From positions 62,001 to 126,000 of the forward strand of contig NZ_VJWE01000018.1 in assembly GCF_007993815.1 (NCBI RefSeq): a stretch of 64,000 bases of DNA. The letters run 5' to 3'. This DNA comes from Acidovorax delafieldii. GTDB taxonomy: Bacteria > Pseudomonadota > Gammaproteobacteria > Burkholderiales > Burkholderiaceae_C. Position numbers and translations under genes: made by a program. Positions 303-20,641 of this stretch are shown one piece after another (the stretch's first letter is position 1; each line of letters starts with the position of its first letter). The notes beneath the pieces are model-generated. The model searched no databases. It saw only the letters and a program-made list of their open reading frames with translations, and had not been told where the DNA came from.

Positions 303-350
303 TTTCACCGGGACCATCATTGTCTCGATGGCCACTTCTTGGAGATCGCC

Positions 351-590: not shown

Positions 591-628
591 TCTTGCAGGC
601 ACACAACACATTTGCAGGGAGGTCATTC

Positions 629-2998: not shown

Positions 2999-3012
2999 GG
3001 AGGGGCCGCTTG

Positions 3013-3040
3013 CACGGACTTGATCTGGGTTAAGTCCGTG
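3013..3040. repeat. Perfect 9-bp inverted repeat between copA and the next gene
   Basis: CACGGACTT (3013-3021) and AAGTCCGTG (3032-3040) form a perfect inverted repeat around ten bases. No T-run follows on either strand, so it is not a textbook terminator. It contains TTGAT-CTGG-GTTAA (3020-3033), which matches eight of ten positions of the FNR/Anr consensus. It could be an operator for the gene starting at 3068 or a weak transcript end for the ATPase operon. Confidence 0.45.
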
Positions 3041-3067
3041 ACTGGCATTCTGGATACCATTCGCACC

Positions 3068-3523
3068 ATGATCGCTGTCAGGAACACCGTGTTGCGCCAA
3101 AGACGCTGGATAACCAGCGTTCTGGTCGCGGTGTTGCTTCTGATGCAGTTCGCGTTGGCGGCCTATGCCTGTCCCAAGCTGGACTCCGCAGCCCATGCGG
3201 CATCGATGCAAAAAGCGGGCATGGCCATGGAAGACTCAGTCGGCATGCCCTCCATGCCCGATTGCCACGCTATGGCGGGAACCATGGATGAGCAAGATCC
3301 TCAGCTGTGTCGAGCCCATTGTGATGGCGACAGCTTGTCCTCCCCCTCGCTACAAGGTCTCGATCTGCAGGCGCTCGCGGCTCACGCCATCTGGGTTGCT
3401 TATGTGCTGCCCGTGATCCTGGACTCAGAACGCCATATTGACCCTCGGGCTGTCTACGCAGAGCTGGACAGTCGAGCGGGCTCTCCCCCCATCTATCTGA
3501 CCCATCAGGTCTTTCGGAATTGA
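3068..3523 (+). CDS. Small secreted Cys/His/Met-containing protein of the copper locus
   Basis: A 151-residue protein with a basic start followed by a hydrophobic segment (about residues 17-35) ending near AAYACP, which reads as a signal peptide or N-terminal anchor. The mature part contains Cys, His and Met residues in a spaced pattern (HAASMQKAGMAMED, MPDCHAMAG, CRAHCDGD) that could bind copper. The second half is ordinary sequence. I do not recognise a firm family; it resembles the small DUF2946/CopL-like proteins that accompany copper efflux genes. ATG 3068 fits a normal signal peptide; the frame is open further upstream. It precedes the cusCBA genes and may be a periplasmic metal buffer. 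That function is inference. Confidence 0.6.
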   Translation: MIAVRNTVLRQRRWITSVLVAVLLLMQFALAAYACPKLDSAAHAASMQKAGMAMEDSVGMPSMPDCHAMAGTMDEQDPQLCRAHCDGDSLSSPSLQGLDLQALAAHAIWVAYVLPVILDSERHIDPRAVYAELDSRAGSPPIYLTHQVFRN

Positions 3524-3598
3524 ACGTGCACGGCGTGTGCGCTGCCTTGCAGCGTGCGCGCAGGTCTGACTTCGTGCCCCTTCATTTCGAGGACTATC

Positions 3599-4924
3599 AT
3601 GCCCAACATCTCCTTCGGCGCTCCCTGCGAGCGCCTGCCTGCGCAACTGCGCATTCATCCTCTCTCGCCGCGCATCCGTGTGCGCAACCTCAACCATCTG
3701 CGCCTTTGCGCTCTCGGATTCCTGCTGGCCGGCATCGGCCTTGCAGGCAACCAGGCCCACGCCCTGGGGTTTGCCGAAGCCTTGGATCTGGCGGAGCAGC
3801 ACAGCCCTCGTATCACGGCCCAGCGGCTGCAGATTGACGCAGCCAGCAGTACCCAGAAGTCGGCGGGAACTCTGCCGGATCCAAAGCTCTCGGTCGGGGT
3901 CGAGAACTTTCCCATCAGCGGCATGGATCGCTTCAGCCTTACGCGCGAGTCCATGACCATGCAACGCCTGGCGCTGATGCAGGAGGTTCCCAACCGTGCC
4001 AAACGAGATGCGCAGATCGCCAGCGCCCAGGCCAAGGTGGAGCGCGAACGCGCCACTCTGGGGGTCCAGCGTCTGCAGATCCGCCAGGAGCTGAGCCAAG
4101 CCTGGATCATGGCCCAGGCCATTGAACAGCGCGACCAGGTGCTTGCCGGTCTACTGAGTGAGAACCAGCGCCTGCAGGACAGCCTGCCTGCCCGCATCGC
4201 AGGGGGGACGGCCCAGGCGGGCGATCTTCTGATGGCCAAGCAGGAGGCTCTTGCGCTGTCGGACCGCAGGGACGATCTGCAGCGGGACCGATCCAAGGCC
4301 AGGGCGATGTTGCGGCGCTGGGTTGGCGCCCGCGCCGACGAGGCGCTGCAGGGAGTTCCCGGGCCGCTGAGCCGCCCTTTGGACCAGCTTCGGTCAGAGG
4401 TACACCGCCACGCGGAACTCGCGCAGTACCCCGCCATGCAAGCCATGGCCTTGGCGGAAACGCGCGAAGCCCAGGCAGAAACCAAGGGTGATTGGTCCTG
4501 GGAAGTCGCCTACAGCCGCCGCGACCGCCGCTGGGGCGACATGGTGTCTTTCCAGGTGACCTTTGATCTTCCCTGGCAACAGGAGCGGCGTCAGGGACCC
4601 CAGATCAAGGCCAAGCAGCTGGAGCTGCAGCGCCTGGAAGCCGAGCAGGAGGACGTGACCCGCAGGCACCTACAGGAGCTGGAGGACAGCGCCTCAGAGC
4701 TGGCGGCACTGAACAGTCAGATCGAGCGGCTGCAATCGGCTGGCATCGGCTTGGCACAAGGGCGCGCCGAACTCGCGTTGGCCAACTACCAGTCTGCCAA
4801 GGGCGATTTGAGCGCCGTGCTGGCTACAAGGGCCCAGGTGCGGGAGGCGCACTGGCGACTCATTGAGCTGCAGGCACAGCGGGACACCGTGATTGCCCGC
4901 CTGAACAGCCTGATCGCGGACTGA
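3599..4924 (+). CDS. cusC: CusC/CzcC-like outer-membrane efflux protein (TolC family)
   Basis: A 441-residue TolC-family protein forming the outer-membrane duct of a heavy-metal RND efflux system. An N-terminal hydrophobic stretch (about residues 34-55, ending in NQAHA) looks like a signal sequence after an unusually long basic leader. The remainder shows the two long alpha-helical hairpin repeats of the family, with heptad-rich Gln/Glu/Ala segments around residues 130-240 and 330-430. ATG 3599 has GAGGA just upstream; a GTG further upstream in frame is possible. Twelve bases separate it from the adaptor gene, so cusC, cusB and cusA form one operon. No lipobox is obvious. Confidence 0.87.
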   Translation: MPNISFGAPCERLPAQLRIHPLSPRIRVRNLNHLRLCALGFLLAGIGLAGNQAHALGFAEALDLAEQHSPRITAQRLQIDAASSTQKSAGTLPDPKLSVGVENFPISGMDRFSLTRESMTMQRLALMQEVPNRAKRDAQIASAQAKVERERATLGVQRLQIRQELSQAWIMAQAIEQRDQVLAGLLSENQRLQDSLPARIAGGTAQAGDLLMAKQEALALSDRRDDLQRDRSKARAMLRRWVGARADEALQGVPGPLSRPLDQLRSEVHRHAELAQYPAMQAMALAETREAQAETKGDWSWEVAYSRRDRRWGDMVSFQVTFDLPWQQERRQGPQIKAKQLELQRLEAEQEDVTRRHLQELEDSASELAALNSQIERLQSAGIGLAQGRAELALANYQSAKGDLSAVLATRAQVREAHWRLIELQAQRDTVIARLNSLIAD

Positions 4925-4936
4925 AGGGAGAACAAC

Positions 4937-6454
4937 ATGACCAATACCGTTTTCAGGAAAACAGTTGTGGCTGTGGCACTGGTTGCTGCAGGCATTGCCC
5001 TCGGCTGGGGAGTCTCCCAATGGCGCATCGCAAGCAGTCATGCACCTGGCGCTACGCCCGCATCTGCAGAAGCTGCGAAGACCGACCGCAAGGTGCTGTA
5101 CTGGTACGACCCCATGGTGCCGACGCAGAAATTCGACAAGCCTGGCAAATCGCCCTACATGGACATGGCCCTGGTTCCCAAGTACGCCGATGAGGACACT
5201 CAACAAGGCGCAGGATTGAGCGTCTCCGCCCAGGCGGTGCAAGCCCTCGGCCTGCGCACCGCCATGGTCGAGCAGCGCGACATTGGGTCCGATGTGGACG
5301 TGCTGGGCACGGTCCAGCTCAATGACCGGGATGTGAGCATCGTCCAGGCGCGCTCAGCCGGGTTCGTGGAGCGGGTCTACGCCCGGGCCCCGGGCGACGT
5401 GGTGGCCGCAGGCGCGCCATTGGCCGATCTACTGCTGCCAGAGTGGGTGGCTGCGCAGCGCGAGTTTCTCGCGGTCCGGGCGCTCAAGGACGAGTCGCTG
5501 ACGACAGCAGCGCGCCAGCGGCTGTCGCTGCTGGGCATGCCTGCCTCGCTCGTGGCCCAGGTGGAGCGCACGGGCGAACCTCAGGGCCGCTACACGGTGA
5601 CCTTCCCGCAGGCCGGCATGGTGGCTGAACTGATGGTGCGCCAGGGCATGACGGTCTCTTCGGGGGGCAGTCTGGTGCGCGTAAACGGCCTGGCCAGCGT
5701 CTGGATCGAAGCGGCCGTTCCTGAAGCGCAAAGCGGTCCCTTGCAACTGGGGCAGGACGCCCAGGTCCGATTGGCCGCGTTTCCGGGCGAAACCCTCAAC
5801 GCCCGGGTCGTGAGCATCCTCCCAGAGGCCAACCGGGACACCCGCACGGTGCGCGTGCGCCTGGAGCTTCCCAACCCCACCCAGCGCCTGAAGGCGGGCA
5901 TGTCCGGGCAGATCGTCCTGGCCGGACGCACACAACCAGCGCTGCTGGTGCCCAGCGAAGCGGTGATCCGCACCGGCAAGAGGGCGTTGGTCTACGTGGT
6001 GGACGGTCCTGGCAAGTACCACCCCGTCCAGGTGCAACTCGGCGGGGAAATCGATGACCGCCTCGTCATTCAAGGCGGCCTCACCGCAGGACAACAGGTG
6101 GTCGCCTCGGCACAGTTCCTGATCGACTCGGAAGCCAGCCTGCGAGGCATCATGCCCGCACAGCCTCCAGGCAGCAGCGCGCAACCCATCGCTGAACAGG
6201 GTTCCTCGGCCTCTGCGGCTCCGGCGTCCAAGAGCTTTACGGTGCGAGGGGTGGTCGATGAGGTCACGCCAACCGAGCTGACCCTTACCCACGAGGCCGT
6301 GCCTGAACTGAAGTGGCCCGGCATGACCATGCCATTCAAGTTGGCAAACCCAGAACTGGCAAAAGCACTGAAACCCGAGCAGCAGGTGAAGTTCACCTTC
6401 CAGCAGCAAGGCAAGGACTTCGTGATCACTGCCGTGGAAAGGATCAAGCCATGA
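4937..6454 (+). CDS. cusB: CusB-like periplasmic adaptor with fused CusF-like domain
   Basis: A 505-residue membrane-fusion protein linking the RND pump to the outer-membrane duct. After a signal or anchor segment (about 8-28) there is a metal-binding YWYDPM module (about 55-85), then the barrel-sandwich, alpha-hairpin and beta-barrel domains of the CusB family. The last 75 residues form a CusF-like copper chaperone domain: His452, Trp460, Met463 and Met465 have exactly the spacing of the CusF ligands His36, Trp44, Met47 and Met49. In Escherichia coli CusF is a separate protein; here it is tethered to the adaptor. AAGGGAG precedes ATG 4937. The stop overlaps the start of cusA in ATGA, indicating translational coupling. 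Confidence 0.92.
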
Positions 6455-9400
6455 TCGCGCGTCTGATCCGCTGGTCGGTGGCGAACCGACTCCTGGTTCT
6501 GCTGGCGACCGTGATGCTTACGGCCTGGGGCGTGTGGGGTGTGCGCAGCACCCCCGTGGACGCTCTTCCCGATTTGTCGGATGTCCAGGTCATCATTCGC
6601 ACTTCCTATCCCGGCCAAGCACCGCAGATAGTGGAGAACCAGGTCACATACCCGCTGTCCACCACCATGCTGTCCGTCCCGGGCGCCAAGACGGTGCGAG
6701 GTTTCTCGTTCTTTGGCGACTCATTCGTCTACATCCTGTTCGAGGATGGCACGGACCTGTACTGGGCGCGCTCGCGGGTGCTGGAGTACATGAACCAGGT
6801 GCAGGGACGACTACCCGCTACGGCCAAGTCGTCGTTGGGCCCAGATGCCACCGGGGTGGGCTGGATCTTCCAGTACGCCCTGGTAGATCGCACCGGCAAA
6901 AACGACCTGGCCCAGCTTCGCGCCTTGCAGGACTGGTTCCTGAAGTTCGAACTCAAGAGCTTACCCAACGTGGCCGAGGTGGCATCGGTCGGTGGCATGG
7001 TCAAGCAGTACCAGGTCGTGCTCGACCCCATCAAGCTTGCGTCCCAAGGCCTCACTCAGGGGCAGGTGCGCGAGGCCATCATGAATGCCAACCAGGAAAC
7101 GGGGGGATCGGTGCTGGAACTGTCCGGCGCCGAGTACATGGTGCGCGCCAGCGGCTATCTCAAGACGCTGGACGACTTCCGCGCCATCCCGTTGGTGTCG
7201 CGCGCAGGGGTGCCTGTGCGCCTGGGGGATGTCGCCACCGTCCAGATCGGGCCGGAAATGCGGCGCGGCATCGCTGAACTCGACGGCGAGGGGGAAGTGG
7301 CTGGAGGCGTGGTCGTGCTGCGATCTGGCAAGAACGCCCAGGAAACGATCCAGGCCGTAAAGGCCAAACTCAGCGAGCTGCAAAGCAGCCTGCCCCAGGG
7401 CGTGGAGATCGTCACCACCTACGACCGCAGCGCACTCATCGAGCGGGCGATCCAGAACCTCAGCACCAAACTCGTAGAGGAGTTCATTGTGGTGGCGGTG
7501 GTCTGTGTCTTGTTCCTCTGGCACCTGCGTTCTGCGCTGGTCGCCATCATTTCTCTGCCGCTGGGGATCATGGCGGCGTTTCTGGTGATGCGCTACCAGG
7601 GCATCAACGCCAACATCATGTCCCTGGGCGGGATTGCAATCGCCGTGGGCGCCATGGTCGATGCAGCAGTGGTGATGATCGAGAACGCCCACAAGAAGCT
7701 GGAGGCCTGGCAGCACAAGCATCCCGACCGCCAACTGGTGGGGGAAGAACGCTGGAAAGTGATCACCGAAGCTGCCGAGGAGGTGGGCCCCGCGCTGTTC
7801 TTCTCGCTGCTTATCATCACGTTGTCCTTTGTGCCCGTTTTTACGCTGGAAGCACAGGAAGGCCGCTTGTTTGGACCGCTGGCGTTCACGAAGACCTACG
7901 CGATGGCCGCAGCTGCGGCACTCTCGGTCACGCTGATCCCGGTCCTCATGGGCTACTGGATCCGGGGGCGTATCCCTGACGAGCAGAAAAACCCCATCAC
8001 CCGCGCGCTGATTGCCGTGTACCGACCTTGCCTTGAGTGGGTCTTGCATCGTCCCAAATCCACCCTGGTCATCGCCGTGCTGGCGCTGACGACCACGATC
8101 TGGCCCCTGTCGCGGTTGGGGGGCGAGTTCCTGCCCAGGCTGGATGAAGGCGATCTGCTGTACATGCCGTCAGCCCTGCCGGGCCTGTCGGCACAGCGAG
8201 CCACGGAGCTTCTGCAATTGAGCAACCGGATGATCAAGACGGTGCCCGAGGTCGAGCGCGTCTTCGGCAAGGCGGGCCGCGCAGAGACCGCCACCGATCC
8301 GGCCCCGCTGGAAATGTTCGAGACCACGGTGAAGCTCAAGCCCAGAGACCAATGGCGTCCAGGAATGACGCCCGAGGGCCTGATCGAAGAGTTGGACAAG
8401 GCCGTCAAGATCCCCGGCCTGTCCAACATCTGGATTCCACCCATTCGCAACCGAATCGACATGCTGGCAACCGGCATCAAGAGCCCCATCGGTGTCAAGG
8501 TGACGGGCAACGACCTGCAGGTGATCGATGGGATCGCGGCACAGGTCGAGCAGGTCGCCAAAGGCATTCCGGGAGTGGCCTCGTCACTGGCCGAGCGCCT
8601 GACAGGGGGCCGCTACGTCGATGTCCGCATCGATCGCACGGCCGCGGGGCGCTACGGGCTGAATGTGTCCGATATCCAGGCCGTGGTCTCCGGGGCCATC
8701 GGTGGAGAAAACGTCTCGGAAACGGTCGAGGGCTTGGCCCGCTTCCCGATCAACCTGCGCTATCCGCGTGAGTGGAGAGACTCGCCCGAACGCTTGGCCC
8801 AATTGCCCATCTCCACCCCCATGGGGCAGCAGATCACGCTGGGTACGGTGGCCAGCATCGCCATCACCGATGGGCCACCCATGCTCAAAAGCGAGAACGC
8901 CCGCCCATCGGGCTGGGTATATGTCGATGTGCGGGGACGAGATCTGGCATCGGTGGCCAATGACCTGCGCGACGCGGTGAGCCGACAGATCAAGCTGCAG
9001 CCAGGAGTCAGCATCACGTACTCTGGCCAGTTCGAGTACCTAGAGCGGGCCAATGCTCGCCTCAAGGTGGTGGTACCAGCCACCTTGCTGATCATTTTCG
9101 TGCTTTTGTACTTGACCTTCTCGCGCATGGGTGAGGCGGGACTGATCATGGCGACGTTGCCATTCGCGTTGACCGGGGGCATCTGGTTCCTCTACCTGAT
9201 GAACTACAACCTGTCCATCGCCACCGGTGTGGGCTTCATCGCCCTGGCGGGGGTCGCGGCAGAGTTCGGGGTGGTCATGCTCATCTACCTCAAGCAGGCA
9301 CTCGCAGAGAGATGTCCAGACGGCAGGCAGCCCACACTGGAAGAGCTGCTGGACGCGATTCGGGAAGGTGCCGTGCTGCGCGTGCGACCCAAGGCCATGA

Positions 9401-9597
9401 CCGTGGCAGTCATTCTGGCGGGCCTGGTGCCCATCGTGTGGAGCAGCGGGACAGGCTCGGAGGTCATGAGCCGCATCGCGGCTCCCATGCTGGGCGGTAT
9501 GGTGACCGCACCGCTGCTTTCTTTGTTCGTGATTCCTGCAGCCTATGTGCTGATGCGAAAGCCAAGGAGAGTGAAAACAGAGGCATCTGGAGGCTGA
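6451..9597 (+). CDS. cusA: CusA-like Cu(I)/Ag(I) RND efflux pump
   Basis: A 1048-residue inner-membrane proton-driven transporter of the heavy-metal RND family, the usual family length. It has the twelve-helix RND layout with two large periplasmic loops and the conserved [15 protein letters not shown] segment in the fourth helix region, which carries the proton-relay Asp. The methionines that coordinate copper in Escherichia coli CusA (573, 623, 672) are present here one position earlier: Met572 in LLYMPS, Met622 in PLEMFET and Met671 in RIDMLATG. This supports monovalent copper/silver rather than zinc or cobalt. The start overlaps the stop of cusB (ATGA); an upstream-extended frame lies inside cusB and is not the real start. 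Confidence 0.95.
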
Positions 9598-9737
9598 ACG
9601 CTGCGTTGCGCAAGCTGGTGCTAGCGATAAACCAGTTGTTTCTCACTCCCAATCGCGCACGCTTGCATGCTATTTTGCGCACGGTGCAAGCGTCAGGCGT
9701 GCAAAATCTGCGGACTGACCGCCCGGAAAGAACAACA

Positions 9738-10550
9738 GTGGAAATTCGTAAGCGCAACAACGTGCATGTGATCGATGCAATTCGCCCGGACGTCCCCGTG
9801 CTCGTCTATGCGCACGGCTTTGGGTGTAGCCAGCATATGTGGCGACACATCACTCCGGCCTTTGAAGGTAAGTGCCACCAGGTCTTGTTCGACTACGTCG
9901 GCTGCGGCCAATCAGACTTGGCCGCCTTTGACCCCGTGAAGTACGCAAGTCTGAAAGGCTACGTGCAAGATCTGCTGGATGTATGCGACGCATTGGGCAT
10001 CGAGCGCGGAGTGCATTTTGTTGGACATTCGGTCAGCGCCAGCATCGGCCTGCTGGCCTCCATCGAGCGACCTATGCTTTTTGATCGCCTGATTCTGGTC
10101 GGCCCGTCGCCTTGCTACATCAATCACGCTCCGGACTACCTTGGAGGGTTCGAGCGCCAGGATTTGGAGGGCCTATTGGACCTCATGGACCAGAACTTCA
10201 TGGGCTGGTCCAGCTACCTCGCACCCATTGTGGCGGGAGCGCCGCAGGCAGACAGTCTGGGCGGAGAGCTGTCCGAGAGTTTCTGCTCAACCGATCCTAC
10301 GATGGCTCGTATCTTTGCGCAGGCAACCTTCTTTGCGGATACCAGAGAGGAGCTGTCGCGCGTGACCCGGCCGAGTCTGATCTTGCAGCATGGCAACGAT
10401 GCGTTGGCGCCCCATTCGGTGGGGGAATACATGCACAAGAAGCTCAGGGACAGCACGCTGGAAGTGCTGGACGTGACCGGACACTGCGCCCACATGAGTC
10501 ATCCTCACTTGGTGACGGCCGCCATGCAGCGATATCTCTCCTTAGCGTGA
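9738..10550 (+). CDS. RsbQ-like alpha/beta hydrolase
   Basis: A 270-residue alpha/beta hydrolase closely resembling Bacillus subtilis RsbQ (269 residues), the partner of the PAS-domain phosphatase RsbP in energy-stress signalling and a relative of the plant karrikin/strigolactone receptors. Shared segments include GFGCSQHMW, LFDYVGCGQSDL, LVGPSPCY and SLILQHGND. The catalytic triad is Ser98 (GHSVSA), Asp221 and His249, each two positions after the RsbQ residues Ser96, Asp219 and His247. The GTG start at 9738 has GGAAAG seven bases upstream and gives the RsbQ length; the frame is open further upstream into cusA. It lies 21 bases before a PAS-GGDEF gene, its probable signalling partner. The natural substrate is unknown. 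Confidence 0.88.
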   Translation: MEIRKRNNVHVIDAIRPDVPVLVYAHGFGCSQHMWRHITPAFEGKCHQVLFDYVGCGQSDLAAFDPVKYASLKGYVQDLLDVCDALGIERGVHFVGHSVSASIGLLASIERPMLFDRLILVGPSPCYINHAPDYLGGFERQDLEGLLDLMDQNFMGWSSYLAPIVAGAPQADSLGGELSESFCSTDPTMARIFAQATFFADTREELSRVTRPSLILQHGNDALAPHSVGEYMHKKLRDSTLEVLDVTGHCAHMSHPHLVTAAMQRYLSLA

Positions 10551-10571
10551 GCGAAACCGAGAGGGCGGAAC

Positions 10572-11501
10572 ATGCTGGCGGTTGATGACATCCCTTGCGC
10601 GATGATGATCACGGACCCGGTGGGGCACATCGTGCGGATGAACAGGGAGTTCCTTGTCCTGATCGGGGGCACGGAGGCGTTTTGGCTCGGCCACTCCATG
10701 GATGAACTGTTGACACCAGCTTCTCGAATTTTCAGCCAGACCCACCTGTTTCCCACGCTGCATCACGCCAAGAGTGCGCGCGAAGTATTCCTCCACCTGC
10801 GCGGTGTTGGCGGCGAGACTGTTCCTGTCATGGTCAATGCGGTCAGCAAGCGCCTGGAGACGGGCGACCACATCGTATGGGCCTTTTTTGTGGCCCGCGA
10901 ACGCAGCCGTTTCGAAGGCGAGTTGATCAAGGCCCGTGCAGAGGCCCAGGGTCTTGCCCAGCGCTTGGCCGCCAGCAATGAACAGGTTGAATTGCAGAAT
11001 CGCCAGCTTTCGGAACTGAGTCTCTCTGATCCGCTTACAGGTCTTAAAAACCGCCGTGCGCTGGAATTGACCGTGCAAGAGTGGCAACGGACGGCCTCTC
11101 GACAGAGTTCCGTGTCGTTGTTGATGGTGGACGTGGACTACTTCAAACGGATCAACGATGCGCATGGCCATCCCGAGGGCGACCGGGTGCTGGTGAACTT
11201 TGCTCGCCAGTTACAGGCAGGCGCCCGTGGTTCGGACCTGGTGGCGCGATACGGCGGGGAAGAATTCGTCCTCTGGTTACCTGATGCGGACGCAGAAGCC
11301 GCTGCCCGAATCGCGGAGCGGGTGCACAAATGCGCCAGACGGGTTCGCTCATTGGCGGGGCCAGTAACGGTCAGTGTCGGGCTGGCATGTGCAGTACACC
11401 AAACCGGAGCGGATTTCCTCGCCCGGCTGCTAAAACGCTCTGATGAAGCTGTTTACAGGGCAAAGGCGCTCGGGCGCAACTGCACAGTGGTTAGTGACTG
11501 A
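10572..11501 (+). CDS. PAS-GGDEF diguanylate cyclase paired with the RsbQ-like hydrolase
   Basis: A 309-residue soluble protein: an N-terminal PAS domain (about 5-105), a coiled-coil linker (about 110-150) and a C-terminal GGDEF domain (about 150-309). The active-site motif is intact as GGEEF (228-232), and RGSD five residues before it is a classical I-site (RxxD) for product inhibition, so it should make c-di-GMP. In Bacillus the RsbQ partner is a PAS-PP2C phosphatase; here the PAS domain is joined to a cyclase instead. GAGGGCGG precedes the ATG. No membrane segment is seen, so sensing is cytoplasmic. What the PAS domain detects, presumably a product of the hydrolase, is inference. Confidence 0.88.
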   Translation: MLAVDDIPCAMMITDPVGHIVRMNREFLVLIGGTEAFWLGHSMDELLTPASRIFSQTHLFPTLHHAKSAREVFLHLRGVGGETVPVMVNAVSKRLETGDHIVWAFFVARERSRFEGELIKARAEAQGLAQRLAASNEQVELQNRQLSELSLSDPLTGLKNRRALELTVQEWQRTASRQSSVSLLMVDVDYFKRINDAHGHPEGDRVLVNFARQLQAGARGSDLVARYGGEEFVLWLPDADAEAAARIAERVHKCARRVRSLAGPVTVSVGLACAVHQTGADFLARLLKRSDEAVYRAKALGRNCTVVSD

Positions 11502-11576
11502 GTCACCAAGCCTCGCGCAGCTCACCAGCGTTTGGAATAGTGATAGCTTCCCCCGCAAAGAACGTTCGCGGTGAGA

Positions 11577-12080
11577 CTACTTGGATGGCATGGCTGCTTG
11601 GCGGTCCACCATCATTTGCATCATCTGCTCCATCATGGCCATACGGCGCTCCATTTGAGCGTGCATGCCCATCATGCCTCCCATACCCGAGTTTCCGGAG
11701 GCTGCAGGCATGGCAGGTTTGGTCTGCGCCCCTTGCTGCATCATTCCCATCCCCATGCCACCAGAACTAGCCGCGCCCATCGTGGCCATGCCTGACTGCA
11801 TGAGCTTCATGTGCTCCTCCATCAGCGCTGAGCGTTCGGCGGGAGTCTTGGCCGCCTGCATTTTTTTGTGCATTTCCTGCATCGCCTTCATCTGACGATC
11901 AAAGGCGTCCGGTGCAGACGCGGCAGTGGCTGCCGGGGCAGACTGGGTTGTGACGCCGCCGCTCTGTGCATCTCCGGGGTGGTGGCCTGCGTGTTCGTCC
12001 TCAGGTTTTGGCGATTGCGCGACGGCACAGCCTGCCACGAATAGGGTTGTCAACAGCCCAGCGACGATGTTCAGACGCAT
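11577..12080 (-). CDS. Met- and His-rich lipoprotein, putative copper-binding
   Basis: A 167-residue predicted lipoprotein: signal peptide MRLNIVAGLLTTLFVAGC with lipobox VAGC (Cys18), then a low-complexity region with HAGHH, an Ala/Pro/Ser linker, a charged helix (about 60-95) and a C-terminus rich in methionine (GGMGMGMMQQ, GMGGMMGMH, RRMAMMEQMMQMM). Methionine clusters of this kind bind Cu(I) or Ag(I) in periplasmic resistance proteins; no named family is certain. AAGGAG lies just upstream of ATG 12080. It follows the HMA chaperone gene with a gap of 18 bases on the same strand, so the two are probably one operon behind the promoter at 12453-12483. It converges with the PAS-GGDEF gene. Confidence 0.7.
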   Translation of the reverse strand: MRLNIVAGLLTTLFVAGCAVAQSPKPEDEHAGHHPGDAQSGGVTTQSAPAATAASAPDAFDRQMKAMQEMHKKMQAAKTPAERSALMEEHMKLMQSGMATMGAASSGGMGMGMMQQGAQTKPAMPAASGNSGMGGMMGMHAQMERRMAMMEQMMQMMVDRQAAMPSK

Positions 12081-12098
12081 GATGGTCTCCTTGGTAGT

Positions 12099-12422
12099 TC
12101 AACTGCAGCATGACGACGTCTGCCTTGCACCGTCTTGATCCACATCAACAGGGGTTACGGGCCGAGACGCACAGCAGCAGCCACCGGTTGTTCGGCGAGA
12201 TGCAGGACTCACCGCCGCGTCTGCTTTGTATCCAGCACGCTCAATTGCGGAGCGGACAAGCTCCACAGTGTCGTCTTCGGCTTGCCCAGGAACGCGGACC
12301 TGCCGCGCGGCCACATCGATTTCTACTTCGACGCCCGCTGGCATTTGAGCCTGAGCGATTGCCCGACGAATGCGCTTCGCGCAACCGCCGCATGTCATAT
12401 CAGGAACATTGAAATGGACCAT
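12099..12422 (-). CDS. HMA-domain copper chaperone with Cys-rich tail
   Basis: A 107-residue protein with one heavy-metal-associated domain (about residues 1-68). The metal site is MTCGGC, followed by the usual alpha-beta pattern ending in ERAGYKA. A cytoplasmic copper chaperone or MerP-like carrier role follows from the family. Unusually, the domain has a roughly 35-residue extension containing GGCCCAS and ending in SSCCS, giving two extra cysteine clusters. I chose ATG 12422 because AAAGGAGG lies five bases upstream; a GTG eight codons earlier lacks this. The CueR-type promoter 30 bases upstream supports induction by copper or silver. Confidence 0.82.
   Translation of the reverse strand: MVHFNVPDMTCGGCAKRIRRAIAQAQMPAGVEVEIDVAARQVRVPGQAEDDTVELVRSAIERAGYKADAAVSPASRRTTGGCCCASRPVTPVDVDQDGARQTSSCCS
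12135..12148. promoter_or_regulatory. Perfect FNR/Anr-type box inside the HMA gene
   Basis: TTGAT-CCAC-ATCAA matches the FNR consensus at all ten defined positions. It lies within the 3' end of the HMA gene, centred 61 bases before the start of the Met-rich lipoprotein gene on the minus strand. If used, transcription would start near 12100 and the site would sit near -41.5. The downstream -10 is weak (CATGCT), so function is uncertain. Confidence 0.4.
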
Positions 12423-12452
12423 GTGAGCCTCCTTTGGTTGATTCACTGTTTG

Positions 12453-12483
12453 ACTATGAACCTTTCCACGATGAGAAGGTCAA
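12453..12483 (-). promoter_or_regulatory. CueR-type promoter for the HMA/lipoprotein pair
   Basis: On the minus strand TTGACC (12483-12478) and CATAGT (12458-12453) are 19 bp apart, with the dyad ACCTT...AAGGT spanning 21 bp across the spacer. This is the layout of CueR/CopR-controlled promoters such as that of Escherichia coli copA. It lies 31 bases upstream of the HMA chaperone start. No MerR-family gene is next to it or elsewhere in the window. Confidence 0.78.
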
Positions 12484-12830
12484 GCTCATTCGCAAAGATC
12501 AACCGGGCATCAAGATCGAGAGCGGCACTCGCTCAGGCAGACAAGGCTATGCCGATTCGATCATGCTTGGCGAGCTGCATGCTGAGAGGCACTTAACGTC
12601 TTTCCGAGTCGACTGCGAAGCTCGCGAACCTGCTTGAACTGGCTTCAAGGCGCAACACGTGTCAGGAGCCAACGTATTGGTGTTCTCCATCTCCATCCAA
12701 AAAAATGGCCCACCGCTCCGAACGTCCGATGAGAGTTCGTCAGCGGACTTCCATGGTGGCTGGACGAGCGACCGCAACCGCTGCACTGCAGTCCATCACC
12801 CGCAAAGCGGCGCGTCTCTATCACCTCCAT
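12484..12830. other. Intergenic stretch between the copper block and the satellite-like region
   Basis: About 350 bases without a supported gene. Several short frames are open on both strands, but none has a ribosome binding site, a recognisable family or consistent codon use. This is where a divergent MerR-family regulator would normally sit; I looked for one on the plus strand and did not find it. Confidence 0.5.
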
Positions 12831-13841
12831 CTAAACACGCGCAGGAGGCAACACGAGTCCTGTCCTGAGCACTCGGCCCAACTGCGGCATAGCCACCCTC
12901 ACGAGCAGGTCTCGTTTGGCCAGATAGTCAGCAACCCGTTGGAACCCCGCAATCGTTGCATCATCAAGTCCGCTGAAAACGCCAACACCGCAGTAAGTAA
13001 AACGAGACTTGTATGTTGGCTCGTTGCAGTTGTGGTACAGCCCCGCTCCCTTCGTCACTTTGTTCTTCCACAGCTCCCCGATGAGTCGAGCGATCGTCAC
13101 ATCCTGGCGAACTTTCGATCCATTAAAGAGCAGCATCAGATGCATGTGCGGGCCCTTTCGTACCCCGTACTCAATCTTGGCGGCATAGCCAAGAAAGCTC
13201 GTTTCAAAACCCTCCTTGATGGCGTCCAACAGATCACTCCAGTGGTCTAGGATTTCGTGTCTTGAATCGACTTGGGCTGCGTATTGTTTACCGTAGCCCA
13301 CATCGAGTCTGATCACCATGAGCTTGGGGTATCTTCTTTTGAACGCGAGCATTCGTTTGACCAATGCCCCACAGGCACGTTCCCGCTCTCGTCGCGCGTT
13401 GTCAATTTTTGATCTGCCGAACCAGCTCCCATACACAACCATTAGCCCGTCAAGGATCTCCATTGCCAGAGTCAGTGCCGCACCACTCGACAAATGCTCA
13501 GTCATGCTTCTTCCAATTAAGACTGGCGGAAGCGCCCGATCCAGGCATGCGATGTGCGGATCGCTCTTTCCGAGTCGAACCCACTCGATCACCTCAGAGA
13601 GAGCCATACCCTCTAGAAGAGCTGCTAGCTTCTGGGCTCTTCGCACACGAGCATGAGGAGCCATAGAGAGCTTTTTCTTACCTCTTCCAATCGGGCAAGT
13701 GGATTGCAATGCCGATTGCAATTGCGTCATCCATACAAGCGATCCCTTGTCTACAGTGACCAAGCAATCTGATGTTTCGCTCACTCCACCAACATGTGAG
13801 TCCAATAGGTCTACAAACATTTCACTTACTCCATTGCTCAT
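12831..13841 (-). CDS. YagK/YfjJ (inovirus Gp2-like) replication-type protein
   Basis: A 336-residue protein whose C-terminal half (about 165-320) matches the YagK/YfjJ C-terminal domain, related to inovirus Gp2 replication proteins. Visible features are RLDVGYGKQY, the GPHMHLMLLFNG segment (an H-x-H motif of the HUH type), WKNKVTKGAGLYHNCN and the late VADYLAKRDLLV. Such proteins are found in filamentous phages and in P4/YfjI-type satellite elements, where a role in initiating replication is presumed. The N-terminal half has no clear match. It is read away from the AT-rich tandem-repeat region at 13842-14265, a possible origin. The real start could be a later ATG; none has a strong ribosome binding site. 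Confidence 0.75.
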   Translation of the reverse strand: MSNGVSEMFVDLLDSHVGGVSETSDCLVTVDKGSLVWMTQLQSALQSTCPIGRGKKKLSMAPHARVRRAQKLAALLEGMALSEVIEWVRLGKSDPHIACLDRALPPVLIGRSMTEHLSSGAALTLAMEILDGLMVVYGSWFGRSKIDNARRERERACGALVKRMLAFKRRYPKLMVIRLDVGYGKQYAAQVDSRHEILDHWSDLLDAIKEGFETSFLGYAAKIEYGVRKGPHMHLMLLFNGSKVRQDVTIARLIGELWKNKVTKGAGLYHNCNEPTYKSRFTYCGVGVFSGLDDATIAGFQRVADYLAKRDLLVRVAMPQLGRVLRTGLVLPPARV

Positions 13842-14265
13842 TCATTCGAATGAATATTGATTTGCCATTTCCAAGTCAACTACACTCACTGTACAGAAGA
13901 GAGATGAGAGACTTATCCGATATCGAACAATAGCCTTATGAGAGGTATCTCAGCACTGAGAGACTGACCTTATAGAGCAGTCAATAGATAACACAGATAC
14001 CACATCACCTATCACCTATCACATATCACATATCACATAACATATACTCCACCCATAAAAACTATCTACGCAATAAAAACCCCCAGCATATCCCGACGCT
14101 TTAGGCAAAAAAATTGAATTTAACTCATACAAATCGCATCTGAGTTACATCCGTTCGAAACCCGCTTTACGCACCCACAAGGCCTCTTGTCGAGATGCCC
14201 AGAGCTATTAACGAATCACAGAAGGCTGAGATGGTGTTCAGCCAATCATTCAATTAAACCCAGTC
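13842..14265. other. AT-rich intergenic region, candidate replication origin
   Basis: About 420 bases of conspicuously AT-rich, non-coding sequence between the Gp2-like gene and a divergent unknown gene. It contains five tandem 7-bp units (14004-14038), a TTATCCGAT resembling a degenerate DnaA box (about 13913-13921) and several short purine tracts. Position next to a Rep-like gene, AT richness and tandem repeats are typical of plasmid or phage origins; this remains inference. Confidence 0.4.
14004..14038. repeat. Five tandem 7-bp repeats (ATCACMT), iteron-like
   Basis: Two copies of ATCACCT (14004-14017) are followed by three of ATCACAT (14018-14038), with degenerate units on either side. 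The 7-bp period is direct and uninterrupted, without spacers, so it is not a CRISPR. It lies 162 bases upstream of the Rep-like gene start and could be a protein-binding array. Confidence 0.65.
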
Positions 14266-15219
14266 ATGTTCTTTCGCCAACTCGACAACAGCGACTCCAT
14301 TGCCAGGCCTTTCAAAAACTCCTCACCACGACTAGTGGAAGTACTGGCATGGGTACACGAAAGGTCACTACTCCTATCCCACGACTTCGAATCAAAGAAG
14401 TGGACCTATGCTGAGGCGATTGACGTTCTCCAAAAGATACTTTTTGATGGAGTGCCATTGCCTCCTTTTCTCTTCCTGCAAGAGAAGAGTTCAGAGCGCA
14501 ATGAACAAAACCCGGCAGTCGCTCTGAACGGATACCGATTACTCAATCTTCTCTATCAGGTTTTCTATCGAAGGTCACCGATAGACTGCATCGAAAGAGA
14601 GGGAGAGGGAGAGAAATCCATCGGCTTTCTCGCACTCGACTTGAAACATTGGAGGCAAAACAACCAGCGCTTTACCGGTGGCTCTATTGTTGATATCCCA
14701 TTCCTTCCGGACTCAGAACTAGAACCTACGTACAGCAGCAAACTAATTCCGGAGGAGGCAAGCTACCTGATTAGGCAAGGCCTTTTCCCATTACGAGCTC
14801 TTTGCCACCCAGGTGATCTATTGGCATGGCAGGTTGCGATGAAAGACTACTTGGAGTTGCGATCGCTTTTTGGCTACAAAAAAGACTTCTCATCTGGAGA
14901 TTTCTCTCCTTGGGAGCCTCGGGATTCGCACAATTCCGACCATTCAGACCCACAGGTTATTGCCAACGATTCCAAGCAGCCGCACTTGAATGAGAACGGA
15001 TTCGCAAGAGTGGACCTTCAGAACGATAGTGTTATTGGCAACTACTCGAAGCGGATCGCACTCATGGGCGACATGCTTGAATTGGTAGAGATCCGCACCA
15101 AGCAATGGATGGCCTTTCAGCAATACGAGCTCAATGTCGTCTGGGTCGCGTCTAGAGAAGTAGCAGCATCCATGCAACCATGGGAGCCGTTCGAAATCAA
15201 AGACGAAAGTGACAGGTGA
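14266..15219 (+). CDS. Unrecognised 317-residue protein, weakly DUF262-like
   Basis: I do not recognise this protein with confidence. It is soluble, with no signal peptide or membrane segment. Residues about 45-105 (WTYAEAIDVLQKILFDGVPL PPF..., then ALNGYRLLNLLYQVF) recall the start of DUF262/GmrSD-type proteins, where a short helix and IPPI strand precede a DGQQR motif. Here the DGQQR is replaced by LNGYR, so if related it would be catalytically altered. The middle is acidic and Ser/Asp-rich (about 210-255), and the end is ordinary helix. Codon use and composition are AT-richer than the flanking copper genes. No ribosome binding site is obvious before ATG 14266. It stands alone, divergent from the Rep-like gene. 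Confidence 0.55.
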   Translation: MFFRQLDNSDSIARPFKNSSPRLVEVLAWVHERSLLLSHDFESKKWTYAEAIDVLQKILFDGVPLPPFLFLQEKSSERNEQNPAVALNGYRLLNLLYQVFYRRSPIDCIEREGEGEKSIGFLALDLKHWRQNNQRFTGGSIVDIPFLPDSELEPTYSSKLIPEEASYLIRQGLFPLRALCHPGDLLAWQVAMKDYLELRSLFGYKKDFSSGDFSPWEPRDSHNSDHSDPQVIANDSKQPHLNENGFARVDLQNDSVIGNYSKRIALMGDMLELVEIRTKQWMAFQQYELNVVWVASREVAASMQPWEPFEIKDESDR

Positions 15220-15288
15220 CGCTCAAACGCAAGCCCCCTCTAAAGGAGGCATTGCGATGGCTTTTTCGGGGGGTGTGGTTCACCAAGC

Positions 15289-15657
15289 TCAGCTGATGAG
15301 GCACGCATCTGGGCCGTGCTGCATCAACCAATTGGGGCGCTTCCCATGGCCCGTCCAAATCTTTCCAGTTGTCGGATCACGGTAACTGCGGCGGGTAGTT
15401 GACCCAACCTTCTGAAATGAATTCGAGGGTGTCGGAAGCGGCAACACCTCTTTCAGGTCTTCAGCCGTTAGCTGATACCTCTCAATGCACTGAGCGACTA
15501 CTTTGAGTCCTTCCGCGACCATTGCTCTGCGTAGATTGGACAGCTTGTCATCCACATTTCGCTTCTCTTCAGCGACGGCCAAGTATTGGTCCAACACAGA
15601 TTGCTTGGGCGGGTTGGATTGAGCCGTGTGGGCTGCCAACATTTTTTCAATTGTCAT
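15289..15657 (-). CDS. H-NS family nucleoid protein (first of two)
   Basis: A 122-residue H-NS-like DNA-binding protein. The N-terminal two-thirds is a helical oligomerisation region (about 15-65), and the C-terminus carries the family signature YRDPTTGKIWTGHGKRPNWL (about 93-112), the AT-hook-like minor-groove motif. It would silence AT-rich, recently acquired DNA such as the flanking region. ATG 15657 is preceded by AGAGGATC at a suitable distance; six codons further upstream is another start without this. A second paralogue is at 25411-25686. It lies between the unknown 317-residue gene and the DUF3987 pair. Confidence 0.87.
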   Translation of the reverse strand: MTIEKMLAAHTAQSNPPKQSVLDQYLAVAEEKRNVDDKLSNLRRAMVAEGLKVVAQCIERYQLTAEDLKEVLPLPTPSNSFQKVGSTTRRSYRDPTTGKIWTGHGKRPNWLMQHGPDACLIS

Positions 15658-15749
15658 TTTGATCCTCTTTCTCAATCAGTTTTTTCGGGGAAGGCGATCT
15701 TTGCGGGCAGGGCGGAGGCCATATTTGTGACTTTTTTTGACGGAGGGGG

Positions 15750-15782
15750 CCTGCAAACCTGCTGAACTAGCGGGTTTGCAGG
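15750..15782. terminator. Hairpin downstream of the DUF3987 gene
   Basis: CCTGCAAACC (15750-15759) and GGTTTGCAGG (15773-15782) form a perfect 10-bp stem with a 13-base loop, 77 bases after the DUF3987 stop on the minus strand. No T-run directly follows on that strand (a run of seven A lies further along), so it may be a weak terminator or an RNA-stabilising structure. Confidence 0.45.
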
Positions 15783-15858
15783 GGGGTCTCCTATCAAATC
15801 GAAGCCACTTTCGTGATGGTGTTGACCGCCACCGATCCGCGGCAAGATTCACGGTGAC

Positions 15859-17106
15859 TTAAAACGACGGCCGGTAGCCCGTGAACGGCCCAAGCTGGCC
15901 AGGTTGCTGGAAGCCAAGGCCATTCGGCAAACTGGAGATTTGAGGTTCGTGCTGCGCCATGGAAAATGAATGGACCAAGGGCCTGAAGTACTCCCGCACC
16001 AATTGGATACGGGCGCCGCCCTTAACGCGCTCTTCAGTCAAGGCACCCTGGCGCACCAAATAGTCGATGGCTGCGTCAAAGCGCTTTGGCAAGCGCGATG
16101 CATTCGGCCCATAAGTACGGAGTTGACTCCTTGGAAAACTGCTCATCCGAAACCAGCCGTGCGCATTGATTTGCTCCACCAGAAAGTTCTGAAGCTTAAT
16201 TGCGTCCTCAAACGCATGCGAGTACTGGTTCGGCTCACCAAAGAGTCGCTTGTACTCCTCCAAGTGCCATCGCATGAGAGAGATTGCATCGTGCATCGTG
16301 CCCTCGTCGATGTCACCATCGAGCTGAAAGAAACAATGCATCACACCGGCCATTCGGGTTGCAATCTCGACTGCCTTCGATGCCTGATCACGAACATCCG
16401 CATAAGCGCCGTCCGGACGCAGACTCAACTCCATTTCAGCGGCAAACTGTTGCCGCAGACGAGTAGCCCCGGCTGTCAGTCGAAGAAGCCGTCGAGTCAC
16501 ATCAGGGTCCCGAAGAATCTCATTGCTGCGGGTTTCACCCTCATGTCTAAGACGCTGAAATCGCCTGACTGCCGAGTGAGACCTGTTGGGACTATGCCCC
16601 CCCACTCCTCGGTATCCTTGCGTGCTCTCCACATAAGCCCACACGCCTCTGCAAGCAAATCCCGATTCGCGCGCCATGTAGTGATTCTTCTCAAAGAAGC
16701 GCCGGAACGGCTCCGGTTGAATCGCGAGAAAGACCACAACCCTTGGGTTTTCGACAACGATGGATCCGCTACTCAATCGATCATGGTTTAAGGTGGTTCC
16801 ATCCCACGTCTTATTCCACACGGCAAGGTGTGCGAGCGTTTGACCGCCGGTAACAGTCCCCCCCTCGTCGGCCATGACGATAGCGGTGCCACCAGATGAT
16901 GCAAGCCCCTCCAAAAAGGCGGCTGTGGTCGTATCGCCAAATTCGCGAAGACCTGGCATAAATGGCTTGGGGCGTAATCCGACATGTAATCGGTACTGCT
17001 CCTGAAGCAGCTTGGCCTTTTCGTCACAAGAGGTCTTAGTGATCTTTTTCAGGAGGCGCTTGCATTCGGCCGCCCAAGCTGCTTGTTCCGGGCTTTTAGG
17101 CTTCAT
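15859..17106 (-). CDS. DUF3987 (YfjI-type) ATPase, C-terminal part as separate gene
   Basis: A 415-residue protein corresponding to the larger, C-terminal part of DUF3987/YfjI proteins, presumed primase/helicase-like ATPases of satellite elements. The Walker B-like segment AIVMADEGG is at about residues 74-82, followed by the family's WDG and conserved helical region. The Walker A part is missing here and is encoded by the preceding frame (17096-17404), which overlaps this gene by 11 bases. Its own start has GAGGAG seven bases upstream, so it is probably translated by coupling. Either the protein naturally works as two chains, or a frameshift split an ancestral single gene. The 3' end is followed by a hairpin at 15750-15782. 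Confidence 0.78.
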   Translation of the reverse strand: MKPKSPEQAAWAAECKRLLKKITKTSCDEKAKLLQEQYRLHVGLRPKPFMPGLREFGDTTTAAFLEGLASSGGTAIVMADEGGTVTGGQTLAHLAVWNKTWDGTTLNHDRLSSGSIVVENPRVVVFLAIQPEPFRRFFEKNHYMARESGFACRGVWAYVESTQGYRGVGGHSPNRSHSAVRRFQRLRHEGETRSNEILRDPDVTRRLLRLTAGATRLRQQFAAEMELSLRPDGAYADVRDQASKAVEIATRMAGVMHCFFQLDGDIDEGTMHDAISLMRWHLEEYKRLFGEPNQYSHAFEDAIKLQNFLVEQINAHGWFRMSSFPRSQLRTYGPNASRLPKRFDAAIDYLVRQGALTEERVKGGARIQLVREYFRPLVHSFSMAQHEPQISSLPNGLGFQQPGQLGPFTGYRPSF

Positions 17107-17404
17107 GGTTGGTCTCCTCGATCTTCTTCATCAAGATCTTCGTGACCGTGGTCTTGCGCTCTCCTTTGTCCGCAACTACTGCCACGATCAGGCTACAGGG
17201 TGTTGCCTCACCGGTCAGTCCTTCCACGTCGACCTGGGCTTGTGTCACTGACGCCATGACGGCCATCATTGCGCTGCCGATGAGCGGCGCAGGCGCTTGG
17301 GTCATGTCCATGACATCGTTAAAGATTTCGTTCAATTCTTGGTTAGCGAAGGCACCGAATGGATAAGCCTTCGTGTGCTCTGACTTGGGTGGAATAAAAA
17401 ACAT
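17096..17404 (-). CDS. DUF3987 (YfjI-type) ATPase, N-terminal part with Walker A
   Basis: A 102-residue protein matching the N-terminal part of DUF3987 ATPases: the start YPFGAF, a helical segment, and the nucleotide-binding segment VVADKGERKTTVTK (about 78-91), the family's Walker A variant GERKTTV. It stops about nine residues after this region, and the rest of the family domain continues in the next, overlapping frame (15859-17106). ATG 17404 has only a weak GAGA-type ribosome binding site. It follows alpA by 69 bases. Alone it could bind but not hydrolyse ATP; a complex with the second part is likely. Confidence 0.7.
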   Translation of the reverse strand: MFFIPPKSEHTKAYPFGAFANQELNEIFNDVMDMTQAPAPLIGSAMMAVMASVTQAQVDVEGLTGEATPCSLIVAVVADKGERKTTVTKILMKKIEETNHEA

Positions 17405-17431
17405 TTGTTGTCTCTGTGTGGGTCTATCGAT

Positions 17432-17449
17432 GGGGGACTTTTGTCCCCC
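17432..17449. repeat. Perfect hairpin between alpA and the DUF3987 genes
   Basis: GGGGGAC (17432-17438) and GTCCCCC (17443-17449) form a 7-bp stem with a TTTT loop. It lies 28 bases upstream of the DUF3987 N-part start and 25 after the alpA stop. It lacks a T-run on the minus strand, so it is more likely an mRNA processing or attenuation element than a terminator. Confidence 0.5.
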
Positions 17450-17473
17450 CGCTGGTTGAGTAGAAAAAAGAAG

Positions 17474-17728
17474 CTAGCTGTGGGCACCTCCTTTTCTGAC
17501 CGGCTGTCGCGACAAAGCAACCTGCTTTGCCAGCCAAACCCGGACTTCCTCCTCGATCCAGTAGTTGCCCCTGCCCATTCCCAACTTGATCGGCCGTGGG
17601 AAGTCGGGATCGAAGTACGGGCCTTTCGCATTGAGCGCGTTGTGGATGGAAGCTGGGCACTTGTGCGTCAGTTGCTGGACCGTCTTGCGGTCAATGAGCG
17701 TGCCTTCAAAAGCAGGAGAGTGGTTCAT
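17474..17728 (-). CDS. AlpA-family DNA-binding regulator/excisionase
   Basis: An 84-residue winged-helix protein of the AlpA type: RKTVQQLTHKCPASIHNAL as the helix-turn-helix, then FPRPIKLGMGRGNYWIEEEV and WLAKQ, the usual wing and closing helix. AlpA-like proteins act as regulators or excisionases of P4-like elements and commonly sit beside the integrase and YfjI-type genes. Here no integrase follows. GGAAG precedes ATG 17728. The gene contains one copy of the palindrome TGTCGCGACA (17505-17514) that recurs at 18317-18326. It probably starts the operon that continues into the DUF3987 pair. Confidence 0.8.
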   Translation of the reverse strand: MNHSPAFEGTLIDRKTVQQLTHKCPASIHNALNAKGPYFDPDFPRPIKLGMGRGNYWIEEEVRVWLAKQVALSRQPVRKGGAHS

Positions 17729-17778
17729 GGTGTCTTCCGTGTTGGGAAGACTGAACTTTCCTTTTTTGATTTCTTGGG

Positions 17779-17810
17779 TTCTATTGCTTTCTCACGCGAA
17801 AACAATAGAA
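17779..17810. promoter_or_regulatory. Inverted repeat upstream of alpA, putative operator
   Basis: TTCTATTG (17779-17786) and CAATAGAA (17803-17810) are perfect 8-bp arms 16 bases apart, about 50 bases upstream of the alpA start. The position suits a repressor or autoregulation site. No promoter hexamers are convincing enough to name. Confidence 0.45.
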
Positions 17811-18316
17811 GTTGTCACTCACTTTTTATAAAAACGCAGAAAAATGGGGCAATTTTTTGTGGCACAGCTTCACGATTTCGAATTCAGGGCCTCTTTTTGG
17901 GCGCAATTTGCGCGTGCAGAAGCCTATTGCTGAATAGCTTTAAAACAGCTGTTTTGACCACCTACGACAGGAGGCAGCGCAGTCGAAGCGCGCTCACAAT
18001 GGCCCTAGAGGCAGTCGATAGAGGTGCCTGCACTGGGCACTTGATGGGAGTGCATCGATTGCAGTGGTGTGTGAGAAATGCCAGTGAATGACACGGATCG
18101 CTAGCCCAAGCGAAGGTCATAGAGCAAACCTTTGTCGCAATGGCTATCGCTTTGCAACCAAAAGCGCCGACTGCACTGTGTTTGCGAACGCGCCAATGAT
18201 GAGAGGCGCCAGCGCAAAGATCTAGCCGTGTCTCAGCAGCAGACACAGGAGCGCTCTGCGCGTGAGAGCGCCAAGGGCGCAATTGATGCCCCCATAACCG
18301 AACCTTGTCGCCACTT

Positions 18317-18326
18317 GTCGCGACAG
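18317..18326. repeat. Palindrome TGTCGCGACA, second copy
   Basis: This 10-bp palindrome occurs here and within alpA (17505-17514). The two share 12 bases (TTGTCGCGACAG) when one is read on the opposite strand, about 810 bases apart. It may be a binding site for AlpA or a recombination protein; no function is shown. Confidence 0.45.
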
Positions 18327-18651
18327 GACGTTGGAGCCTTACCTAACGAACGGAGAGAAGCGCTTCTCGGAACGCCACTCCCCAACTCTGCTTGGGAACA
18401 AGGATCAACGCACCCGGAGAAGACTTTGCCGGAGGAGAAGCCAACAATTGACTGAAGCAGGTACCGTTTGAGCCCGAGTCCGAGTCAGTGAGAGCCGAAA
18501 GCCCAAGAGACACACTCAAAAACGAGGTTGGTTGAGTCAGTGCGCACTACCTCGTCTACTCCCGAAACCACGCTCGGCCCCCATCGAGAACATTGGGCGC
18601 GATTGGTGCGCGAAGCCGAGCTAAATCGACTTGCACCTTTCGGCCCTTCAC

Positions 18652-19917: not shown

Positions 19918-19944
19918 TTCTAGGGTTCTGGTGCTATTCGTCGA

Positions 19945-19956
19945 ATTCTTAAGAAT
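19945..19956. promoter_or_regulatory. 12-bp palindrome upstream of the 421-residue gene
   Basis: ATTCTTAAGAAT is a perfect palindrome 28 bases before the start of the unknown gene at 19917, in the region where its promoter should lie. It could be an operator bound by a dimeric repressor, perhaps the gene's own N-terminal helix-turn-helix. Confidence 0.4.
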
Positions 19957-20114
19957 CAGTGAAGGAATTACGAGCGACCGTTAAGAACAACGTGCTCAAT
20001 GCAATCCGATCACTTCTCTCAGCATGTTAGCCCCAATACTGTGAGTGGTTCACAGTAGACCGGGGCCACTCCGCTTGTTCAATGACAACGGTCCCCGCGA
20101 CCCGTGGAGTTCCC

Positions 20115-20465: not shown

Positions 20466-20601
20466 CTCCTTTTGGCAGAGTCCTTGGAAGGCCGCATTTG
20501 GGCCTGAGGAGATCTCCTTTCCTTCGATCCTAAATTTCTTCAGTCACATATCACCCCTGTGACCTGACCAACGTCTGCCCCTTGGCAGTCGCACAACGCC
20601 C

Positions 20602-20641
20602 ATAAAGCCCGGCACGCTCATCTCGAGCTGCCGGGCTTTAT
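20602..20641 (+). terminator. Strong 13-bp hairpin after the DUF3223-like gene
   Basis: ATAAAGCCCGGCA (20602-20614) and TGCCGGGCTTTAT (20629-20641) pair perfectly around a 14-base loop. The stem ends in an A/T-rich base, and the 3' arm itself supplies the T-rich end. It most likely ends transcription from the left, in either direction. Confidence 0.7.

Follow-up and report, generated by a model that had tools for sequence, protein, structure and literature searches.

Two genes, for an RsbQ-like hydrolase and a PAS-GGDEF diguanylate cyclase, lie at the 3' end of a copper efflux block in the window, the whole 64,000-nucleotide stretch of Acidovorax delafieldii DNA analysed here. The features at this locus are as follows.

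629-2998, plus strand: copper-type P-type ATPase (CopA-like)
3554-4924, plus strand: outer-membrane-factor-like gene in the CusC position, named by reading (no NCBIfam match at 1e-15)
4937-6454, plus strand: CusB-type membrane fusion protein (adaptor; NCBIfam)
6448-9597, plus strand: CusA/CzcA-family RND pump (NCBIfam)
9567-11560, plus strand: stretch unique to the pair-carrying copies of the copper locus, from locus comparison
9738-10550, plus strand: RsbQ-like alpha/beta hydrolase, 270 aa, GTG start, triad Ser98/Asp221/His249
10572-11501, plus strand: PAS-(42-residue helix)-GGDEF diguanylate cyclase, 309 aa
10572-10900, plus strand: RsbP-type PAS domain with C9, L47, R52, F54, H58, P61, E71 and P85, without a DIT ending
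11253-11267, plus strand: GGEEF active site, residues 228-232, with the inhibitory-site motif RGSD (RxxD) just upstream at residues 219-222
11577-12080, minus strand: small Met-rich protein, secreted-looking by reading, with no Pfam or NCBIfam family
12099-12446, minus strand: HMA-domain protein, metallochaperone-like (Pfam)

The ATPase, outer-membrane-factor-like, CusB and cusA genes and the pair thus run in this order on one strand, and the Met-rich and HMA genes follow on the other. The hydrolase gene starts 140 nt 3' of cusA on the cusA strand, which bears out the sequence-only reading that had placed the pair directly after cusA inside a copper block. When the DNA was scanned for consensus signals, the 140-nt gap gave no terminator-like site and 9400-12800 no promoter-like one. 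Shuffled sequence yields at least as many such sites (means of 1.0 promoter-like and 3.1 terminator-like, against 0 and 2 here), and a scan of this kind is weak evidence. Judged from this arrangement, the pair may be co-transcribed with cusA. Adjoining the copper block, 12831-30229 holds mobile-element-like genes, namely a YagK/YfjJ C-terminal domain protein, DUF3987, H-NS-like and DUF932 proteins, a YqaJ recombinase, a Gp3-like recombination directionality factor and a Mutator-family transposase. Further along, a subtilase (768 aa) and an AAA ATPase (399 aa) at 30767-34220 on the minus strand match the models of IetS and IetA, an anti-phage defence pair (E 1.1e-263 and 1.1e-142), and a tRNA-Ser lies at 38717-38806.

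The hydrolase is assigned by its sequence to the RsbQ/KAI2 clade of Ser-Asp-His triad proteins. The closest solved structure by sequence is Bacillus subtilis RsbQ (1wom, E 7.3e-85), followed by Olei00960 of Oleispira antarctica (3qvm, E 8e-75), a member of the same clade deposited merely as a hydrolase, and then by plant KAI2 and D14 proteins. An AlphaFold2 model (pLDDT 92.9) matches both 1wom chains at TM 0.94-0.95 and 50% identity, and a fold search with this model places RsbQ within the top two. The plant KAI2/D14 receptors share the fold and the triad at 30-39% identity among the matches listed by the fold search; their partners in plants are F-box proteins. Ser98, Asp221 and His249 align with the triad residues of RsbQ, each standing two positions above the native RsbQ numbering (Ser96, Asp219 and His247). 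Together with conservation in 28 sequences, the 1wom alignment confirms the triad that had been read from the sequence: Asp221 and His249 show no variation and Ser98 is at least 90% conserved in alignment A2, which covers 28 of the 65 loci described below, window included. Within its own genome the hydrolase is the single close RsbQ homologue, the next matches being 27% and 22% identical, and NCBIfam models of metabolic families score far under their cut-offs on it. At one of the other loci (L108, 9758-10540, minus strand), the nucleophile motif reads GHL in place of GHS, so that hydrolase may signal without hydrolysis.

The cyclase gene starts 21 nt past the hydrolase stop on the same strand, and Pfam assigns its product a PAS domain (residues 4-106 of 309, E 1.7e-5) and a GGDEF domain (152-303, E 4.1e-42). 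A PAS protein following the hydrolase, as in RsbQ-RsbP, had been expected from the letters alone and is what this arrangement holds; the further expectation of a GGDEF output with intact active and inhibitory sites is likewise matched by the GGEEF and RGSD motifs. The GGEEF A-site and a metal-binding Asp (DVDYFK at 187) fit a predicted active diguanylate cyclase. In a monomer model (pLDDT 96), an uninterrupted helix spans residues 109-150 between the two domains; members of the module described below have a coiled coil of at least 21 residues between PAS and output. The PAS domain terminates in WAFFVARERSRFE, and the DIT motif is absent. When RsbP class residues are placed by spacing at a constant shift of -1, C9, L47, F54, E71 and P85 are identical to C10, L48, F55, E72 and P86 of B. 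subtilis RsbP (five of nine, the F55 position included), and the four other class positions (L13, Q53, C56 and Y59) are occupied in the window by M12, R52, S55 and H58. H58, at the Y59 position, would fit the H/Y class of PMC3183031, and R52, at the Q53 position, its basic class, provided that these classes belong to those columns. Conservation is at least 90% at P61 and E71 in the unfiltered alignment A1, whose 58 proteins come from 58 of the 65 loci, with L062-L068 left out.

These features identify the pair, by sequence, as a further member of a published signaling module with a diguanylate cyclase output. Nadezhdin, Brody and Price (2011; PMC3183031) describe 45 pairs of RsbQ with an RsbP-type PAS domain and three outputs behind them: PPM phosphatase, histidine kinase and diguanylate cyclase. 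They report that F55A in the PAS F-alpha helix of B. subtilis inhibited the RsbP-RsbQ interaction, propose a direct RsbQ-PAS contact and leave the signal unidentified. A 2025 eLife study (PMC12143880) likewise describes the RsbQ-PAS module as coupled to kinases and to GGDEF cyclases, and it models the RsbP-RsbQ complex with AlphaFold2. As in the module of PMC3183031, the hydrolase gene in the window lies directly upstream, the PAS domain is the most N-terminal, and a predicted helical linker leads to a GGDEF output; five of the nine PAS class residues match by spacing. Unlike that module, the window copy sits in a copper locus; the word 'copper' is absent from the paper's main text. Compared with B. 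subtilis RsbQ-RsbP, the hydrolase is about 50% identical, retains the triad and has its PAS partner downstream, whereas RsbP bears a PPM phosphatase serving sigma-B and the window cyclase bears GGDEF. The route suggested by the sequence-only reading, from an RsbQ-like hydrolase through PAS to c-di-GMP, gains support from membership in the module, and because the pair belongs to a published module, the route is not new. The suggestion that its signal would be a small hydrophobic molecule is carried over from RsbQ/KAI2 kinship. By their titles, papers retrieved in a literature search on RsbQ ligands mainly concern plant KAI2/D14 receptors.

Homology, intact sites, gene order and the predicted helix are observed at this locus, and co-variation and locus history are described below. 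We regard it as highly probable that the pair is a module member with diguanylate cyclase output, that its hydrolase gates the cyclase via PAS and that it owes its place to one recent arrival. On this reading, the hydrolase would bind, and perhaps cleave, a small molecule in the Ser-His-Asp pocket and, by analogy with the B. subtilis prototype, would contact the F-alpha face of the PAS domain. From there the change would travel through the 42-residue helix, reach the GGDEF dimer and alter c-di-GMP output, the signaling step again being modeled on B. subtilis, and feedback on the cyclase could act through the RxxD site. The pair would have arrived once, recently, in an Acidovorax copper locus and spread among such loci by recombination in flanking DNA.

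The hydrolase is present in 18 of 47 genus genomes (own included; E <= 1e-40) and in 44 of the 349 family genomes that were sampled (again with the own genome; E <= 1e-60). The 65 loci compared comprise the window, seven near-identical copies (94-100%) and 57 others spanning 12.4-20 kb each. This set takes in 40 of the 53 non-own family places and all 20 non-own genus places; of nine loci from named records, four were included, and four of the remaining five match genus copies that the set already contains. Acidovorax supplies the nearest copies among named records; Acidovorax sp. Leaf191 (L025) is one strain with the locus intact. A PAS domain lies directly 3' of the hydrolase in 48 of the 57 other loci. 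Seven of the nine loci lacking a PAS match have a next protein with a histidine-kinase motif; in L078 the next is probably an IS66-type fragment, and in L081, whose hydrolase is 35% identical, the next protein has a GGEEL motif. Pfam finds HisKA in 31, GGDEF in 24 and EAL in 15 of 58 downstream proteins. The nearest outside relative is a Thiomonas MAG (hydrolase 76%), where the gene stands among RecG, LysR and mechanosensitive-channel genes and the partner has an N-terminal PAS domain (tblastn), two further PAS domains and GGDEF.

Hydrolase and PAS distances correlate across 42 loci (r 0.85, with a maximum of 0.31 in 2000 permutations), as do those of the domains at 19 GGDEF loci (0.91 for hydrolase-PAS and 0.75 each for hydrolase-GGDEF and PAS-GGDEF, values that none of 2000 permutations attained); these values carry no control for shared species history, and the 42 rows were picked by a PAS motif, which is present in 47 of the 65 loci. 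Because the motif selected the rows, PAS conservation values of the 42-locus set are inflated at motif residues. On a hydrolase tree of 55 of the 65 loci (L031, L062-L066, L068, L073, L078 and L081 left out), histidine-kinase output requires 8 changes against a shuffled mean of 18.5, and well-supported branches force 4. Output labels on the tree derive from motifs and undercount EAL (6 of 55, against 15 of 58 by Pfam), so only the distinction between kinase and c-di-GMP is safe there. The 8 changes against 18.5 indicate that outputs have been swapped while the hydrolase-PAS pair stayed constant, a pattern already proposed in PMC3183031. In the Comamonadaceae-type genomes searched, the module occurs in many versions that differ by such swaps of output.

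Hydrolase frames are free of stops in 63 of the 65 loci. The two exceptions are L067, with a premature stop at codon 75, and L087, with premature stops at 21 and 66 of the translated match; the cyclase frame beside each is still open. These broken hydrolases are among the rows of the 42-locus correlation and the tree, and L087 alone is in the GGDEF-locus set. In both loci the cyclase may outlive its partner, which argues against a cyclase that strictly depends on its hydrolase. The sequence-only reading had named unrelated contexts without co-evolution as grounds against its proposal. Unrelated contexts are indeed found, but hydrolase and PAS co-vary, so the pairing itself stands.

The family survey is less kind to the suggested link with metal stress. 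Probes made from the window CopA, CusA/B/C, Met-rich, HMA and YagK/YfjJ-like proteins found the copper block in none of the 57 other hydrolase loci, each 12.4-20 kb long. Three of them (L029, L100 and L101) have distant RND matches at 25-35%, 6.7-9.8 kb off, one with a 27% adaptor match. Conversely, 38 of the best 46 cusA loci have no pair in the available sequence; seven have it (window included) and one ends too early. These 46 are the best matches kept as loci, of which L154 stops inside cusA and L145 and L132 reach 304 and 828 nt beyond it. The copper block therefore does not recur around the hydrolase in the spans searched at other loci, and a general metal link is rejected as a family feature.

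The near-identical copies bear on how the pair reached the copper locus. Eight occur in the 47 genus genomes, seven behind cusA and one as an orphan hydrolase (L068). In six of the 38 pairless cusA loci (L125, L126, L153, L158, L160 and L161), the Met-rich and HMA genes come directly after cusA, and in L169 and L170 the empty site is seen directly, with homology breaking at 9566 and restarting at 11566 or 11559. Relative to the window, L063, L065 and L066 are 91-92% identical in cusA and about 90% in the HMA gene, against 99.6-100% in the pair and in the noncoding gap ahead of it and 99.6-99.8% in the Met-rich gene. This difference between pair and cusA indicates that 9567 to about 12080 recently recombined into existing copper loci. 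The same identity step is found in L024 (Acidovorax sp. FJL06) and in L067, where the pair is slightly less similar (98.2 and 99.4%). L062 and L064 are closer in cusA (99.2 and 95.6%), with the pair at 100%; L064 matches window 453-20000 at 93.6%. The Met-rich gene moved along with the pair between copper loci. Other parts of the block vary around the pair; L067 gave no match for the CusC gene and only part of CopA.

Several other accounts of this history were set aside. Selection alone as the cause of near-identity is rejected, since the noncoding 9567-9737 is 99.4-100% identical as well. A self-moving element is rejected because two ORFs fill the stretch and its edges have no terminal repeats, a repeat search returning short internal or chance-like pairs only. 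Plasmid origin is rejected because 9400-12000 has no near match in 72,556 plasmid records. The hydrolase has 184 plasmid matches, all below 60% identity; for the upstream copper block (299-9600, pair excluded) there are matches in 69 plasmid records, 58 at 60-80% and 11 at 80-90%, none covering 80% of the query.

Some copies have lost or altered parts. L068 (Acidovorax benzenivorans; hydrolase 94%) retains 44 nt of the cusA end and lies by an efflux operon of TetR-ABC type, named by reading; homology is lost 16 nt past the hydrolase, which has no cyclase next to it, and the contig ends shortly beyond. Its positions 19869-20000 have no match to the cyclase and may be an insertion-element edge. 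L062 has an insertion of about 1.4 kb (~7091-8481) at the cyclase gene end, whose flanks overlap by 8 window bases (11491-11498), like an IS target duplication, and its cyclase frame is 320 rather than 309 aa. From the stops in L067 and L087, the orphan in L068 and the insertion in L062, either partner may persist or disappear without the other, or else these copies are in decay.

What the pair does in the copper locus can be read in several ways. We think it likely that it answers a general, non-metal signal, as in the rest of the family, and merely rides with the locus. The varied gene contexts across the family favor this, as do the recent single arrival, with DNA near-identical down to the noncoding gap, and the decay in two of the eight near-identical copies; against it, inter-locus transfer could reflect selection on the pair there, or equally on the adjoining Met-rich gene. 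An unlikely reading is that the pair forms the tail of the cus operon and is copper-induced, coupling metal stress to sessile growth through c-di-GMP. The shared strand, the 140-nt spacing, the order kept in seven copies and the scan, with neither a terminator-like site in the gap nor a promoter-like site nearby (counts no higher than in shuffles), are consistent with it; the copper-free loci, the pairless cusA loci and the fact that one of the eight copies lacks the cyclase and sits next to an unrelated efflux operon while another has a broken hydrolase argue the other way. Chance juxtaposition of a metabolic alpha/beta hydrolase with an unrelated PAS cyclase is extremely improbable: both alpha/beta hydrolases and GGDEF proteins are common, but this hydrolase is kin to RsbQ/KAI2 and not to metabolic families, PAS adjoins it in 48 of the 57 loci, and the PAS matches class residues by spacing.

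On the preferred reading, the pair is a module member whose hydrolase gates the diguanylate cyclase through PAS. The copper link looks like one recent event in one lineage. From the gene arrangement, copper induction of the pair via read-through from cusA is possible. That the c-di-GMP sensor pair acts as a strain-to-strain cassette at the cusA 3' end, copper-induced by read-through, is quite unlikely; if true, a ligand-gated c-di-GMP switch would have been rewired in nature to respond to metal stress. By their titles, none of the papers listed in literature searches tied a diguanylate cyclase or RsbQ to copper, and in two Listeria plasmid papers (PMC2932693 and PMC8508797) RsbQ is present in a reference title only. 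The copper setting offers a concrete induction hypothesis rather than evidence of a metal sensor. The pair is of an ordinary kind, and its mobile copy in a copper locus is mildly interesting. It is also small (270 and 309 aa), its sites are intact and its read-out, c-di-GMP, is simple, which makes it a convenient test case for the RsbQ-type signal.
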